This document shows, one piece after another, positions 3,241 through 11,428 of a stretch of 36,536 nt of DNA (positions are counted from its first letter, which is position 1; each line of letters opens with the position of its first letter). Source of the DNA: a virus; IMG/VR virus record IMGVR_UViG_3300025872_000149, positions 1 to 36,536 of that record; one strand, given 5' to 3'. Under the pieces are notes generated by a model. It saw nothing but the letters and a program-made list of their open reading frames with translations, had not been told where the DNA came from and made no database searches. The translations under genes and the position numbers were made by a program.

Positions 3241-3378
3241 GCAACGCAACAGCCCCACAAACATAGCGCAACAACGCAACTACCCTAAAGGGTAGTAGTT
3301 GCGTTGCGTTGCGCTAAAATGTTAGTCTTGTCACAAACGCAACTAAAAAAAAGTTGCGCAACAGTTGCGTTTTGTTGC
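3241..3378. repeat. GCAAC/GTTGC iteron-like cluster with central palindrome
   Basis: Within the 348-base gene-free gap between convergent genes (3051-3397), the pentamer GCAAC or its complement GTTGC occurs 12 times in 138 bases, mostly as CGCAAC, at 3241, 3246, 3268, 3276, 3298, 3303, 3308, 3339, 3353, 3358, 3364 and 3374. The centre is a perfect palindrome, CTACCCT-AA-AGGGTAG (3280-3295). It is flanked by inverted blocks running from AGCGCAAC (from 3265) to GTTGCGCT (to 3315). The cluster lies beside the primase-helicase gene. A replication origin, partition-type site or termination locus is possible; no convincing promoter or gene is seen in it. Confidence 0.7.
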
Positions 3379-3397
3379 GCTACTTTTTACCCCACTT

Positions 3398-5404
3398 TTA
3401 TGCCCTCAAAAGCATGGCAGATGCCTGAACGGTGTCCAAAACGATCCACCCATGCTCGTACGAGTCGATGACCTGGGAGATCAAAAGCTCCCCGATTGGC
3501 TTCCCCTTGGACGACGGTCGGACGTAGATCGAAGCTGATGCTTCGGTCAATTCAAGGGTATCCATCAGATATTGGATAAGCCCCGACCGGCTCAAATACG
3601 GCTGACCGGCTCGGGTTTCTTTTCCTGCCACTTCCCAAGCATTCTGAAATAATCTTATATGTTTGGTTAATTTATTAACCCCTTTATCGGATATTGGTTT
3701 ATTGACTATTTCAATAATGGCGCTGGTGACCTGTTCATCGTCCTCGTCGATCCATCCGTTGATCTCCACGGTGCGAAGCTGGGCGTATATGTCTGGTGCT
3801 ATTTCTGAGTCCTTAGCTTTGCGCTGGACGATCTGCATCGGAGCTTCGTCTTTTGCGGGAATGATGCTTACCTCAATGTCGAGGGCTCCTCTCCATGCTG
3901 ATGACCCCCGAGCGCGATGCTGGGCTTCTTCGCTGACCCCGGTGTGATGCACTAGCAGGACTGAGCAATTGAACTCGCGCATGAGCTGGCCGCAGGCGTC
4001 TAGCATCGTTTTAGCGTCCTGAGCGCTGTTTTCATCGCCGGATAGGAATCGGTGCAGGGTGTCAATGACGATTAGGTCGGGGGGCTCGGGAAGTTGTTTC
4101 AGGTGAGTTGAGGTAGACAGATAGCCTTCTGGGGTGTTCAGGTCGCACCCCGAGCGGCTGAGCCACATCTGTAAGCTGCTGGCTTGATGATGCTGTTTCC
4201 AGGCTGCTATCCGAGCCCTCAGACCGTGATGGCCTTCGCCTGCCAGATAAACTATTCTTGCGGGCTTGACTCGATTGCCTGCCCACTCTTGCATTCCGCT
4301 GGCTAGACGTAGGCACCAATCCAGGACTACGAACGTTTTACCGCCGCCGCTAGGACCATGGATCATGATAAGAGCGTCGGACTGCAACCAGCCTTTGATG
4401 AGCCATTTGATCGGCGCAGGCTTCTGGCAATAGTCATCGGCGGGGATAAGCCAAGACTCTTGAGGAGGGTTCAGAAGCAATGAGAGGTTATGCCCAGCCT
4501 GGTGGTAATCGTTGGCATCCCCCTCGACCGAGGGCATAACGTAGCTCACACCATACTTGGCACAAGCCTGCTCGGCATGGCGCTGACCGACTCCACTTTT
4601 ATCGTGATCTGCCACAATCACAATCTTCTGGTCTGGGTAGAGCTCAAGAAGCGAGCCGGTGACGGGGATCAGATTCGAGGCACTGTACGCAACGACACAG
4701 GGGCGACCGCTTACCTCATGGATTGTTGCGGCTGTGGCGAAGCCTTCGGCCAAGTAAAGCGTTCCGGGGCTATCGACTAGACCGATGAGCCAGAATTGGC
4801 CGCCCGTTTGTCCGCCGGAGTGGTAAAGCTTGCCGCCCTCGCTGTCTATGTATTGAAGGCTGGATAGCTCCCCGTCCTCGCTGAAAAGAGGCACCATGAG
4901 CCTACCGTCGCCGGTGATTTTGGCGCCGTGTGGCTGGATGCCTTTGCGTTTGAGGTACGGATGGTCCGGACTTGCCTGGACGCCCTCGCTCCAGATGGTC
5001 TCGACTGTGCTAGCGGCCACAGAACGATCGCGCTCTATCTCTGCATCGCGCAACTTTTTGGCCGCATTGACACGGGCCACGTGGGCCATTTCTTGGGCCG
5101 GTGTCCACCTTTTCTTCCCAATGTCGGCTTTGACTGTCTGGGTGAAGTTAGCTCGCCAGCATCCGAACGTGATGCTCGGAATGCCTTCTCCGTAAGCTAC
5201 GTACCAACCCGATCTATCAAGTGTCTTGCGGCTGTTTCCGCTTCTGAATCTGTGAATCCTCCCATCAATAATTATTTGGTCGGGAACGTCTAAACCCGAC
5301 TCGGCTACTGCGTTTTTGAACTGCACCTCGACTGGCAACGGTGCAGGGCCCACATCTACCGGGGGAGACCAAGGCCCCCCCAGCACGCGGGTGAGATCGG
5401 CCAT
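3398..5404 (-). CDS. TOPRIM primase - RecA-like helicase
   Basis: 668-residue replication protein. Residues about 210-300 are a TOPRIM domain with the conserved Glu in LYLAEGF (E220) and the VADHD pair (D266/D268). Residues about 330-560 are a RepA/DnaB-type ATPase with Walker A HGPSGGGKT (349-357), Walker B LIVIDTLHRF and a sensor-like LLVHHTG. The N-terminal 120 residues resemble the DUF927/primase-associated region of phage and plasmid primases. It likely primes and unwinds phage DNA. It starts directly after the HTH gene stop in the same leftward operon. No phage DNA polymerase is present, so host polymerase III is presumably recruited. The GCAAC repeat cluster lies just past its stop. 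Confidence 0.88.
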   Translation of the reverse strand: MADLTRVLGGPWSPPVDVGPAPLPVEVQFKNAVAESGLDVPDQIIIDGRIHRFRSGNSRKTLDRSGWYVAYGEGIPSITFGCWRANFTQTVKADIGKKRWTPAQEMAHVARVNAAKKLRDAEIERDRSVAASTVETIWSEGVQASPDHPYLKRKGIQPHGAKITGDGRLMVPLFSEDGELSSLQYIDSEGGKLYHSGGQTGGQFWLIGLVDSPGTLYLAEGFATAATIHEVSGRPCVVAYSASNLIPVTGSLLELYPDQKIVIVADHDKSGVGQRHAEQACAKYGVSYVMPSVEGDANDYHQAGHNLSLLLNPPQESWLIPADDYCQKPAPIKWLIKGWLQSDALIMIHGPSGGGKTFVVLDWCLRLASGMQEWAGNRVKPARIVYLAGEGHHGLRARIAAWKQHHQASSLQMWLSRSGCDLNTPEGYLSTSTHLKQLPEPPDLIVIDTLHRFLSGDENSAQDAKTMLDACGQLMREFNCSVLLVHHTGVSEEAQHRARGSSAWRGALDIEVSIIPAKDEAPMQIVQRKAKDSEIAPDIYAQLRTVEINGWIDEDDEQVTSAIIEIVNKPISDKGVNKLTKHIRLFQNAWEVAGKETRAGQPYLSRSGLIQYLMDTLELTEASASIYVRPSSKGKPIGELLISQVIDSYEHGWIVLDTVQASAMLLRA

Positions 5405-6407: not shown

Positions 6408-7079
6408 ATGGCTATAAATCTCAAAACCACCAAATCACTCGCGGCATCTGGCGTAAAACTTCTGGTCTACGGTCAAGCCGGGGCCGGTAAGACGACCCTG
6501 ATACCAAGCTTGCCGACGCCTGTAGTGTTGTCGGCTGAGGGCGGTCTGCTGTCGATTGCAGACGCTGACGTGCCTTTTATTGAGATAGGCACGATGGCTG
6601 CTTTGTGGGAGGCTTGGGAGTGGCTAACGAAGTCTGCGGAAGCTACCCACTTTGAAAGCGTTGCGCTAGATAGTATTAGTGAAATTGCGGAGGTCGTGTT
6701 GTCCGCTGAGAAGAAATCTAGCAAAGATCCTCGACAGGCTTACGGTGCGATGCAAGAGCAAATGGCTGACATCATCCGGGCATTCCGTGATGTGCCAGGC
6801 AAGCACGTTTACATGTCTGCAAAGCTAGAAAAGAACCAAGACGAAATGGGCCGGATACTCTACTCCCCATCAATGCCGGGCAATAAAACCGGACAAAGCC
6901 TACCCTACTTTTTCGATGAAGTGCTGGCGCTAAGAGTTGAGAAGAATGCTGAAGGCGAGACACAACGGGCACTGATGTGTGACTCTGATGGACTATGGGT
7001 TGCTAAAGATAGATCCGGAAAGCTTGAGATGTGGGAAGCCCCCGACTTAGGGGCGATCATCCGAAAAATTGAGAGTTAA
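6408..7079 (+). CDS. Sak4-like RecA-fold ATPase (recombination)
   Basis: 223 residues with Walker A GQAGAGKT (22-29), a Walker B-like SVALDSISEIAEV and no other domain, as in the AAA_24/Sak4 family of phage single-strand annealing-associated ATPases (usual length about 220-300). It would load on single-stranded DNA with a phage SSB and support recombination or replication restart. The neighbours agree: a DUF669-like protein and a RecB/Cas4-like nuclease lie just downstream. Start ATG at 6408, with ribosome site not strong. Confidence 0.82.
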   Translation: MAINLKTTKSLAASGVKLLVYGQAGAGKTTLIPSLPTPVVLSAEGGLLSIADADVPFIEIGTMAALWEAWEWLTKSAEATHFESVALDSISEIAEVVLSAEKKSSKDPRQAYGAMQEQMADIIRAFRDVPGKHVYMSAKLEKNQDEMGRILYSPSMPGNKTGQSLPYFFDEVLALRVEKNAEGETQRALMCDSDGLWVAKDRSGKLEMWEAPDLGAIIRKIES

Positions 7080-8279: not shown

Positions 8280-9242
8280 ATGGCACAGGTGTCTATCCCA
8301 AATCCAATTGTTGAAGCTATTGACCAGGCTTACCAAGACACCCAGGAGCCGCCACGAGGGCATTTAGGGGCCTCAATGCTTGGCCATAAGTGTGATCGTT
8401 GGCTTTGGCTGTCTTTCAGGTGGGCGGTGATAGAAAAGTTCCCCGGTCGGATCCTGCGGCTATTCCGCCGTGGCCAGGACGAAGAAGCCAGGATTGTCGG
8501 GGACCTATGCCGGATCGGTGTGCAGTTTCGAGACACCAAGGGCGAGCAGGTACGGGTTGATTTTGGCTCGCATGTGTCTGGATCGGTGGATGCAATCATT
8601 GAGTCTGGTCTGCCAGGCGCACCGAAGGCCAAACACGTAGTGGAGATGAAGACGCATTCACTAAAAAGCTTCAACGATTTATGCGCCAAGGGTGTCCAGC
8701 AGTCAAAGCCTATGCACTGGGCCCAAATGCAGGTTTATATGCATGGCTTGGGCATTCATCGAGCGTTGTATTACGCGATCTGCAAAGACGATGACAGGAT
8801 CTACACTGAACGGCTACACTATGACAATCAGGCAGCTGAGAAGCTGGTGGATAAGGGCAGACGAATTGCGCAAGCAGACCGGATGCCAGAGCCGTTGAGC
8901 AGTGACCCAACGTGGTGGGAGTGCAAGTTTTGTGCAGCGCACGAGTTTTGCCACAAAACCAAGAAGACTAGGGAAGTGAACTGTAGGACATGCGCACATT
9001 CAACGGCTAGCGTCTCTGGTCACTGGGGGTGTGCAAAATGGGGTAACGACATCCCTGAGGATTGGCAAAGAACAGGGTGTTCGTCGCACGTTGTTCACCC
9101 GGATCTAGTGCCGTGGAAGCTGAAAGGAAGCGACGGTAACGGCTGGAGAGCAATCTATTTGGTGGACGGGCGCGAGGTGGTGAACGGTGAACCTGGGCCC
9201 GGGGTGGTGTCTAGTGAGGAACTTCTGAAGGATAAGGAATGA
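8280..9242 (+). CDS. RecB/Cas4-like PD-(D/E)XK nuclease with Cys clusters
   Basis: 320 residues. The nuclease core has D104 (SGSVDAII) and E122-x-K124 (VVEMKTH). C38 together with C215, C218 and C224 (ECKFCAAHEFC) has the layout of the iron-sulfur cluster seen in Cas4 and AddB-type nucleases. A second Cys group follows (CRTC at 235-238, C251, C267), probably a separate zinc or cluster site not present in the minimal family. It probably trims double-strand ends to make single strands for the Sak4/DUF669 pair. AAAGGAG precedes the ATG; the stop overlaps the next gene as ATGA. Confidence 0.82.
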   Translation: MAQVSIPNPIVEAIDQAYQDTQEPPRGHLGASMLGHKCDRWLWLSFRWAVIEKFPGRILRLFRRGQDEEARIVGDLCRIGVQFRDTKGEQVRVDFGSHVSGSVDAIIESGLPGAPKAKHVVEMKTHSLKSFNDLCAKGVQQSKPMHWAQMQVYMHGLGIHRALYYAICKDDDRIYTERLHYDNQAAEKLVDKGRRIAQADRMPEPLSSDPTWWECKFCAAHEFCHKTKKTREVNCRTCAHSTASVSGHWGCAKWGNDIPEDWQRTGCSSHVVHPDLVPWKLKGSDGNGWRAIYLVDGREVVNGEPGPGVVSSEELLKDKE

Positions 9243-10452: not shown

Positions 10453-10640
10453 ACATCAAACTAATACCGCCAAAGATTGATGCTTTTGACGATGATCACA
10501 TTGCCGTTTTCACCATGGAGATGGTAGGTGAGGATATCGCCAGCATTGAGATCCGGGCTTGGATTGATAGGGATAACTGGCCGCACATTCAAAAGGCAGT
10601 TACCGATGCTTTGGAGATGATGTTTCCGGAGGGTGCATGA
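10449..10640 (+). CDS. Small hypothetical acidic protein
   Basis: 63 residues from ATG 10449 (ATGA overlap with the previous stop); an ATG at 10404 lies inside the upstream gene and is less likely. The composition is acidic with a beta-rich middle (IAVFTMEMVGEDIASIEIRAW) and a final helix. Its end carries the GGAGG ribosome site used by the two overlapping genes that follow. Function unknown. Confidence 0.6.
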   Translation: MNIKLIPPKIDAFDDDHIAVFTMEMVGEDIASIEIRAWIDRDNWPHIQKAVTDALEMMFPEGA

Positions 10641-11428
10641 ATGAGTTGGCTCTTTTCGCGGGTGCTGGTGGAGGAATTCTCGGGGGAAAACTGCTCGGAT
10701 GGAGAACAGTCTGTGCCGTCGAATGGGAGCCCTACCCCGCAAGCGTTCTTGTCCAGCGACAAAATGACGGGCTTCTCCCGCCTTTCCCGATCTGGGATGA
10801 CGTTCAAACCTTTGACGGAAAGCCGTGGAAAGGAATCGTTGACGTTGTATCTGGCGGGTTTCCATGCCAAGACATCAGTGTTGCCGGGAAAGGAGCAGGC
10901 ATTGACGGAAAACGCTCGGGAATGTGGTCACACATGGCGCGGATCATTGGCGATGTTCGACCCCGTTTCGTCTTCGTGGAAAACAGCCCAGCCATCATTA
11001 CTAGAGGACTTGGGCGAGTCCTTGGTGATTTGGCCTCGCTCGGGTATGACTGTAAATGGACAGTGCTGGGAGCTGCCGACGTTGGAGCACCGCATCAACG
11101 GGATAGATTCTGGCTTGTGGCCAACTCCAACAGTATGCGGAAATTACAACCGGAAGGGAGCCAGCAAGACAAGCGGGGATGGTCTGGCAACGGCTGTATT
11201 CAAGTGTGCAACCCCAACAGCCAGAGACTGGAAAAGCGGGAAAGCCAGCCAGGCAACAATGGAGAGGAATTCCAGACCTCTATCGGAGCAAATTGGTGGA
11301 AGTCTGAACCCACCATGGGTCGAGTGGCTTATGGGGTGGCCGGAAGGGTGGACAGACTTAAAGCCATTGGAAACGGTCAAGTTCCAGCAGTGGCAGCAAC
11401 AGCATGGAGGCTGCTAAATGCTCCGTGA
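10637..11428 (+). CDS. DNA cytosine-5 methyltransferase (Dcm-like)
   Basis: 263 residues with the C5-methyltransferase motifs in order: I (LFAGAGGG, 6-13), IV (GGFPCQ with the catalytic C77), VI (ENSP at 115-118), VIII (QRDRFW) and X (GNGQVP near 246). It transfers methyl from SAM to cytosine, presumably to shield phage DNA from host restriction. The target domain between VIII and X is short (about 80 residues), as in other phage enzymes of this type. The ATG overlaps the previous stop; GGAGG lies just upstream. Another complete reading frame, shifted by +1, covers almost all of the gene (10641-11417). No restriction enzyme is adjacent. Confidence 0.92.
   Translation: MNELALFAGAGGGILGGKLLGWRTVCAVEWEPYPASVLVQRQNDGLLPPFPIWDDVQTFDGKPWKGIVDVVSGGFPCQDISVAGKGAGIDGKRSGMWSHMARIIGDVRPRFVFVENSPAIITRGLGRVLGDLASLGYDCKWTVLGAADVGAPHQRDRFWLVANSNSMRKLQPEGSQQDKRGWSGNGCIQVCNPNSQRLEKRESQPGNNGEEFQTSIGANWWKSEPTMGRVAYGVAGRVDRLKAIGNGQVPAVAATAWRLLNAP
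10641..11417 (+). CDS. Overlapping +1-frame protein within methyltransferase gene
   Basis: 258 codons without a stop in the +1 frame, starting 4 bases after the methyltransferase ATG and using the same GGAGG. The product looks like a protein: an N-terminal part rich in Ser, Phe and Trp (MSWLFSRVLVEEFSG), two WPTPT/ATPTARDW-type repeats in the middle (LWPTPTVCGNYNRKG, CATPTARDWKSGK) and an ending WVEWLMGWPEGWTDL. From memory, proteins of this pattern are annotated as hypothetical next to phage cytosine methyltransferases. By rough estimate a random frame would stay open this long only a few times in a million. Function is unknown; action together with the methyltransferase is a guess. It could still be a codon-bias shadow. 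Confidence 0.55.
   Translation: MSWLFSRVLVEEFSGENCSDGEQSVPSNGSPTPQAFLSSDKMTGFSRLSRSGMTFKPLTESRGKESLTLYLAGFHAKTSVLPGKEQALTENARECGHTWRGSLAMFDPVSSSWKTAQPSLLEDLGESLVIWPRSGMTVNGQCWELPTLEHRINGIDSGLWPTPTVCGNYNRKGASKTSGDGLATAVFKCATPTARDWKSGKASQATMERNSRPLSEQIGGSLNPPWVEWLMGWPEGWTDLKPLETVKFQQWQQQHGGC

Follow-up and report, generated by a model that had tools for sequence, protein, structure and literature searches.

A phage cytosine-5 methyltransferase locus with two overlapping reading frames that probably encode the two chains of one enzyme

Introduction

Motif IX of known C5 methyltransferases belongs to the small domain and adjoins the target recognition region. In M.EcoHK31I the gene for the large chain also contains, in a different frame, the coding sequence of the small chain. 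Motifs I to VIII, motif X and the predicted target recognition domain of this enzyme (YGGCCR) are located on the large chain while motif IX is located on the small chain (PMC3404938). M.AquI (CYCGRG) is split after motif VIII, and its small chain comprises part of the variable region together with motifs IX and X (PMC3404938). A second protein of a different kind is known from phage methylases, namely the out-of-frame HNH endonuclease of the ShiLan type, an inserted mobile element read in the third frame (PMC11855218). With respect to translation, two close-set starts that share a ribosome site can both work in E. coli, depending on their spacing (AUGUG, GUGUG; PMC9841429).

The locus described here lies in a window of 36,536 nucleotides (the whole stretch of DNA that was analysed), which is part of a tailed phage with genes for portal, head closure, tail fibre and primase-helicase. 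Compared by motif description, its two frames, alpha and beta, resemble M.EcoHK31I in that motifs I-VIII and X are found on one chain and, most likely, motif IX on the other. They differ from it in that the recognition domain of M.EcoHK31I is assigned to the large chain, whereas the window has a region of PTP repeats in that place, on the small chain. Moreover, the two frames of the window overlap almost entirely, their starts being separated by 4 nt, and the arrangement occurs in phages. Given the overlap known from M.EcoHK31I, the pair is therefore not a new category. The division seen in M.AquI recurs in related loci (L215, L223, L403, L407 and others; type B below), where, in contrast to M.AquI as described, two frames overlap along motifs I-VIII; in the window itself motif X stays on alpha, in frame 0. 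As in ShiLan, a phage methylase gene harbours a second protein in another frame, but the window contains no insertion, the overlap spans the whole gene, and neither an HNH nor any other Pfam match was found in beta. The overlap and a role in providing motif IX are absent from the descriptions of the three families that match beta (phrog_1008, phrog_26627 and phrog_35493), and among the papers searched none describes a phage alpha/beta overlap.

Results

The following features were assigned in the window:

10628-10633 (+), single Shine-Dalgarno-like sequence GGAGGG ahead of both starts
10637-10643 (+), double start ATGAATG, with the alpha ATG at 10637 and the beta ATG at 10641
10637-11428 (+), alpha, C5 DNA methyltransferase of 263 aa with motifs I-VIII and X and no motif IX (PF00145)
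10641-11417 (+), beta, +1-frame protein of 258 aa with PTP repeats and, most likely, motif IX (assigned from the ORF, homologues and stop counts)
10646-10675 (+), motif I of alpha, LALFAGAGGG (PF00145)
10853-10879 (+), motif IV of alpha with the catalytic PCQ, GGFPCQDIS (PF00145)
10956-11069 (+), conserved block of beta, FDPVSSSWKT...WPRSGMTVNGQCW, overlapping motifs of alpha
11084-11122 (+), motif VIII of alpha, GAPHQRDRFWLVA
11118-11153 (+), PTP repeat 1 of beta, WPTPTVCGNYNR
11208-11240 (+), PTP repeat 2 of beta, ATPTARDWKSG
11304-11360 (+), candidate motif IX of beta, LNPPWVEWLMGWPEGWTDL, in the +1 frame immediately 5' of motif X
11360-11416 (+), motif X of alpha, KAIGNGQVPAVAATAWRLL, in frame 0

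This layout agrees with an earlier note on the same DNA, in which two open frames with a common ribosome site had been described: the beta ATG lies 4 nt downstream of the alpha ATG, and beta stops 11 nt ahead of alpha. The repeated PTP motif and the WLMGWPEGWTDL ending mentioned there are likewise present, the former twice. The spacing from GGAGG is 4 nt to the alpha ATG and 8 nt to the beta ATG. The stop codon TGA of the upstream gene (10638-10640) directly abuts the beta ATG, and the stop codon TAA of beta (11415-11417) directly abuts the start codon ATG of the helicase gene that follows.

An antisense ORF of 134 aa (10461-10865, minus strand) overlaps the start of the alpha/beta pair. Genes for a Sak4-like annealing protein (6408-7079, +) and a Cas4-domain exonuclease (8280-9242, +) are located upstream of the pair, and the minus strand carries, at 877-2109, another methyltransferase gene, whose N-terminal part is ParB-like (phrog_498, phrog_620).

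Alpha matched PF00145 with an E value of 2e-33 over residues 4-172 only (positions 4-174 of 324 in the profile), the match ending at motif VIII, and has motifs I-VIII including PCQ. Motif IX was not found in alpha; the best window for a motif IX matrix lay elsewhere and was poor. Motif X was recognised by sequence, and in profile comparison it took the correct position without reaching significance. In the region between motifs VIII and X the PTP repeats are read in the +1 frame, opposite a poorly conserved sequence in frame 0.

Beta did not match any model in Pfam or NCBIfam. Among PHROG families, phrog_1008 (E 4e-29; labelled DNA methyltransferase), phrog_26627 (E 2e-15) and phrog_35493 (E 5e-8) were retrieved. 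The N-terminal part of beta is conserved in the +1 frame opposite motifs I-VIII of alpha, and no known relatives of the N-terminal half were found. A profile of the C-terminal half matched, in hmmsearch, the single chains of types D and C described below with E values down to 2e-14; this similarity makes the C-terminal half of beta a homologue of the stretch that links motifs VIII and X in single-chain C5 methyltransferases. In the DNA, LNPPWVEWLMGWPEGWTDL stands just before motif X of alpha, which is the expected place of motif IX, and this conserved motif of the enzyme is most likely supplied by beta. A motif IX matrix built from seven canonical enzymes had its best window at this site in 108 of 227 beta proteins, with scores no better than those of shuffled sequences; as its absolute score was too weak, the matrix was rejected as a detector. 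When nine canonical enzymes were compared profile to profile, the catalytic part was recovered and nothing was obtained for beta, and an AlphaFold model of beta alone was poor (pLDDT 57) and had no fold matches.

The similar database proteins beside phage methyltransferases that the earlier note mentions are explained: each of the 243 homologues retrieved by similarity to beta overlaps a methyltransferase, always in this relative frame, and a stand-alone beta gene was sought among them and not found.

The motifs are distributed over the two frames in four ways; counts of these were obtained by pattern matching, with some loci unparsed and samples chosen by different queries, so that they are not frequencies. 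In type A, to which the window and most loci belong, alpha has motifs I-VIII and X, and beta has the PTP repeats and motif IX. In type B, represented by at least 12 loci (L215, L223, L361/L366, L369, L371, L376, L378, L392, L403, L407, L420 and L435), alpha has motifs I-VIII and ends there, and the beta frame unites the PTP repeats with motifs IX and X. Type C (L355, L448, L451 and 11 actinophage ORFs) has motifs I-VIII, IX and X in alpha, the PTP repeats being left in the +1 frame. In type D (18 actinophage ORFs, e.g. L472 and L450) motifs I-VIII, the PTP repeats, IX and X are united in one chain. L355 matched PF00145 end to end (profile positions 3-322), through LNPDWVEWLMGYPISWTD and motif X. 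The IX-X part of L472 aligned with a structurally characterised plant DRM methyltransferase (LEPDEVEMLLGFP...RYKSLGN; E 3e-4 for the whole query). In the AlphaFold model of L472 the catalytic part was confident and IX-X had pLDDT values of 87-97, the PTP region was not confident and was predicted to be disordered, and the best Foldseek match was M.HhaI (E 7e-13). As judged from these motif assignments, the frame of motifs IX and X differs from lineage to lineage, and the complete set of motifs is retained.

L365 was considered as a fusion and rejected, since an indel shifts both frames there; L220 looks like another indel of this kind. In L125 the third frame contains an HNH-like ORF (3309-3686) between motifs IX and X of a related pair, which recalls the hidden HNH of ShiLan; for this reason its same-frame motif X was left uncounted. 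In L378, too, a similarly long stretch separates IX from X.

The canonical order of motifs I-VIII, PTP, IX and X in the DNA, together with the single chains of actinophages, would also suit one polypeptide made by ribosomal frameshifting, from frame 0 to +1 between motif VIII and the PTP region and back before motif X, the +1 frame not being translated as such. We consider this improbable: the arrangement of the window would require two shifts, beta has a conserved ATG of its own, and the conserved +1 N-terminal part opposite motifs I-VIII would be absent from the frameshift product. A similarly low probability is given to beta as a separate regulator, inhibitor or protector outside the catalytic unit, a role with which its constant overlap with a methyltransferase and the lack of known relatives of its N-terminal half would agree. 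Such a protein would not be expected to carry motif IX or, in type B, motif X as well, which is then missing from alpha. The earlier note had proposed a partner or protector of the enzyme; motif IX on beta speaks for the partner, and the protector is without support of any kind.

Evidence for coding in the +1 frame was sought in stops, starts and site variation. When the alpha protein and its codon set were kept fixed, 1.5% of synonymous permutations of the window gene stayed open in the +1 frame (P ~0.015). The chance of a few in a million given in the earlier note was thus too strong, and the openness of this one gene, taken alone, is mildly unusual and weak evidence. Because choice by the +1 frame was to be avoided, 80 loci were gathered by similarity to the methyltransferase frame alone. 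Stops in the +1 frame of homologues, which had been named as a possible refutation, were practically absent: in 79 of the 80 loci the frame ran without a stop to a point 1-3 codons short of the end. The exception, L276 (2505-3371), has an interior +1 stop after 143 codons, both pieces being otherwise intact. Among 69 non-redundant genes no +1 stop was observed, as compared to 353 ± 13.5 expected, and the +2 frame contained 1090 stops versus 891 ± 21 expected, i.e., no avoidance; these counts come from related sequences and are not independent events, and the contrast between +1 and +2 is unaffected by kinship. Stops in the reverse frames of the same genes were near expectation, with little or no avoidance.

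The start of beta is conserved as well. Asparagine at codon 2 of alpha is encoded by AAT, the codon that creates the beta ATG, in 66 of 66 cases, compared to 231 of 616 asparagine codons (37%) elsewhere in the same genes. Across 74 loci the beta ATG is conserved in 73, whereas the codon at the alpha start position is ATG, GTG, TTG, TTA or CTT and is a non-start codon in 12 cases. The score of a beta HMM was 293, versus 143 ± 15 for synonymous permutations.

Synonymous constraint among homologues, one of the checks proposed earlier, was seen too. At fourfold sites the difference was 0.36-0.38, as compared to 0.645 in neighbouring genes with similar protein identity, a comparison made on beta-chosen loci and repeated on alpha-chosen loci. 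Where alpha faces the end of beta (residues 221-240), third positions vary least (p3 0.11 vs p1 0.26). Amino-acid identity over codon permutation was rejected as a test, since it was likewise raised in the +2 frame and did not discriminate; stop counts were used instead. Avoidance of +1 stops and conservation of the start exceed what the alpha frame imposes, and by this evolutionary record the beta frame is a real, maintained coding frame. An even longer +1 ORF of the same kind (364 aa) is present in L366. That the +1 similarity is a by-product which merely mirrors protein conservation and codon usage of the methyltransferase, as the modest P value for the single gene and the raised +2 identity might suggest, is extremely improbable in view of the missing +1 stops without +2 avoidance in a sample chosen by the methyltransferase frame only, the invariant AAT at codon 2, and, around motif IX, third positions of alpha that are less variable than first positions.

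Discussion

We regard it as very likely, from the motifs read in the two frames, that the locus encodes one C5 methyltransferase made as two polypeptides which associate. Because elsewhere the other frame holds motif IX, or motifs IX and X, and the whole set is found in one chain in actinophages, a single heterodimeric enzyme comparable to M.EcoHK31I and M.AquI is proposed. We infer that alpha and beta are both translated and bind each other. Alpha would supply AdoMet binding, catalysis (motifs I-VIII) and motif X; beta, begun 4 nt later behind the common ribosome site, would supply motif IX, the PTP repeats and its conserved N-terminal part. Association of the two as a heterodimer would yield the complete enzyme, both chains being needed for activity, and the heterodimer would methylate cytosines in phage (or host) DNA. 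The PTP region possibly takes part in target recognition, which is a guess because this region is predicted to be disordered in the single chain. Methylation would protect the phage DNA from restriction, as is usually assumed for phage methyltransferases.

A further idea, which is tentative and on balance rather doubtful, is that of a frame-modular enzyme: the PTP region, motif IX and motif X might shift between the two overlapping frames via indels, the second frame's own start rescuing each rearrangement so that the displaced part becomes a subunit. If this were true, phages could exchange target-recognition parts.

Beta matches were obtained in at least 94 phage records and in several hundred viral contigs and prophages. 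A beta homologue with 43% identity (H61) is encoded on a Leptospira interrogans plasmid (NZ_CP043879.1, 51888-52667). Most of the records looked at annotate one frame only, and annotators have deposited either frame or both. In Paenibacillus phage Diva the second frame (gp50; L010, 1639-2343) was deposited as 'g49 internal gene', without a function.

An annotation of a single frame overlooks the other chain. An enzyme cloned from such an annotation and altered or recoded in the other frame would probably look inactive, and codon-optimising alpha would destroy beta. As a same-strand overlap the locus is long and strongly backed by evolutionary evidence, and what its frames encode appears to be one enzyme in two halves and not a pair of unrelated proteins. 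The four arrangements of the same motifs may serve as a natural series for the origins of overlapping genes and split enzymes.
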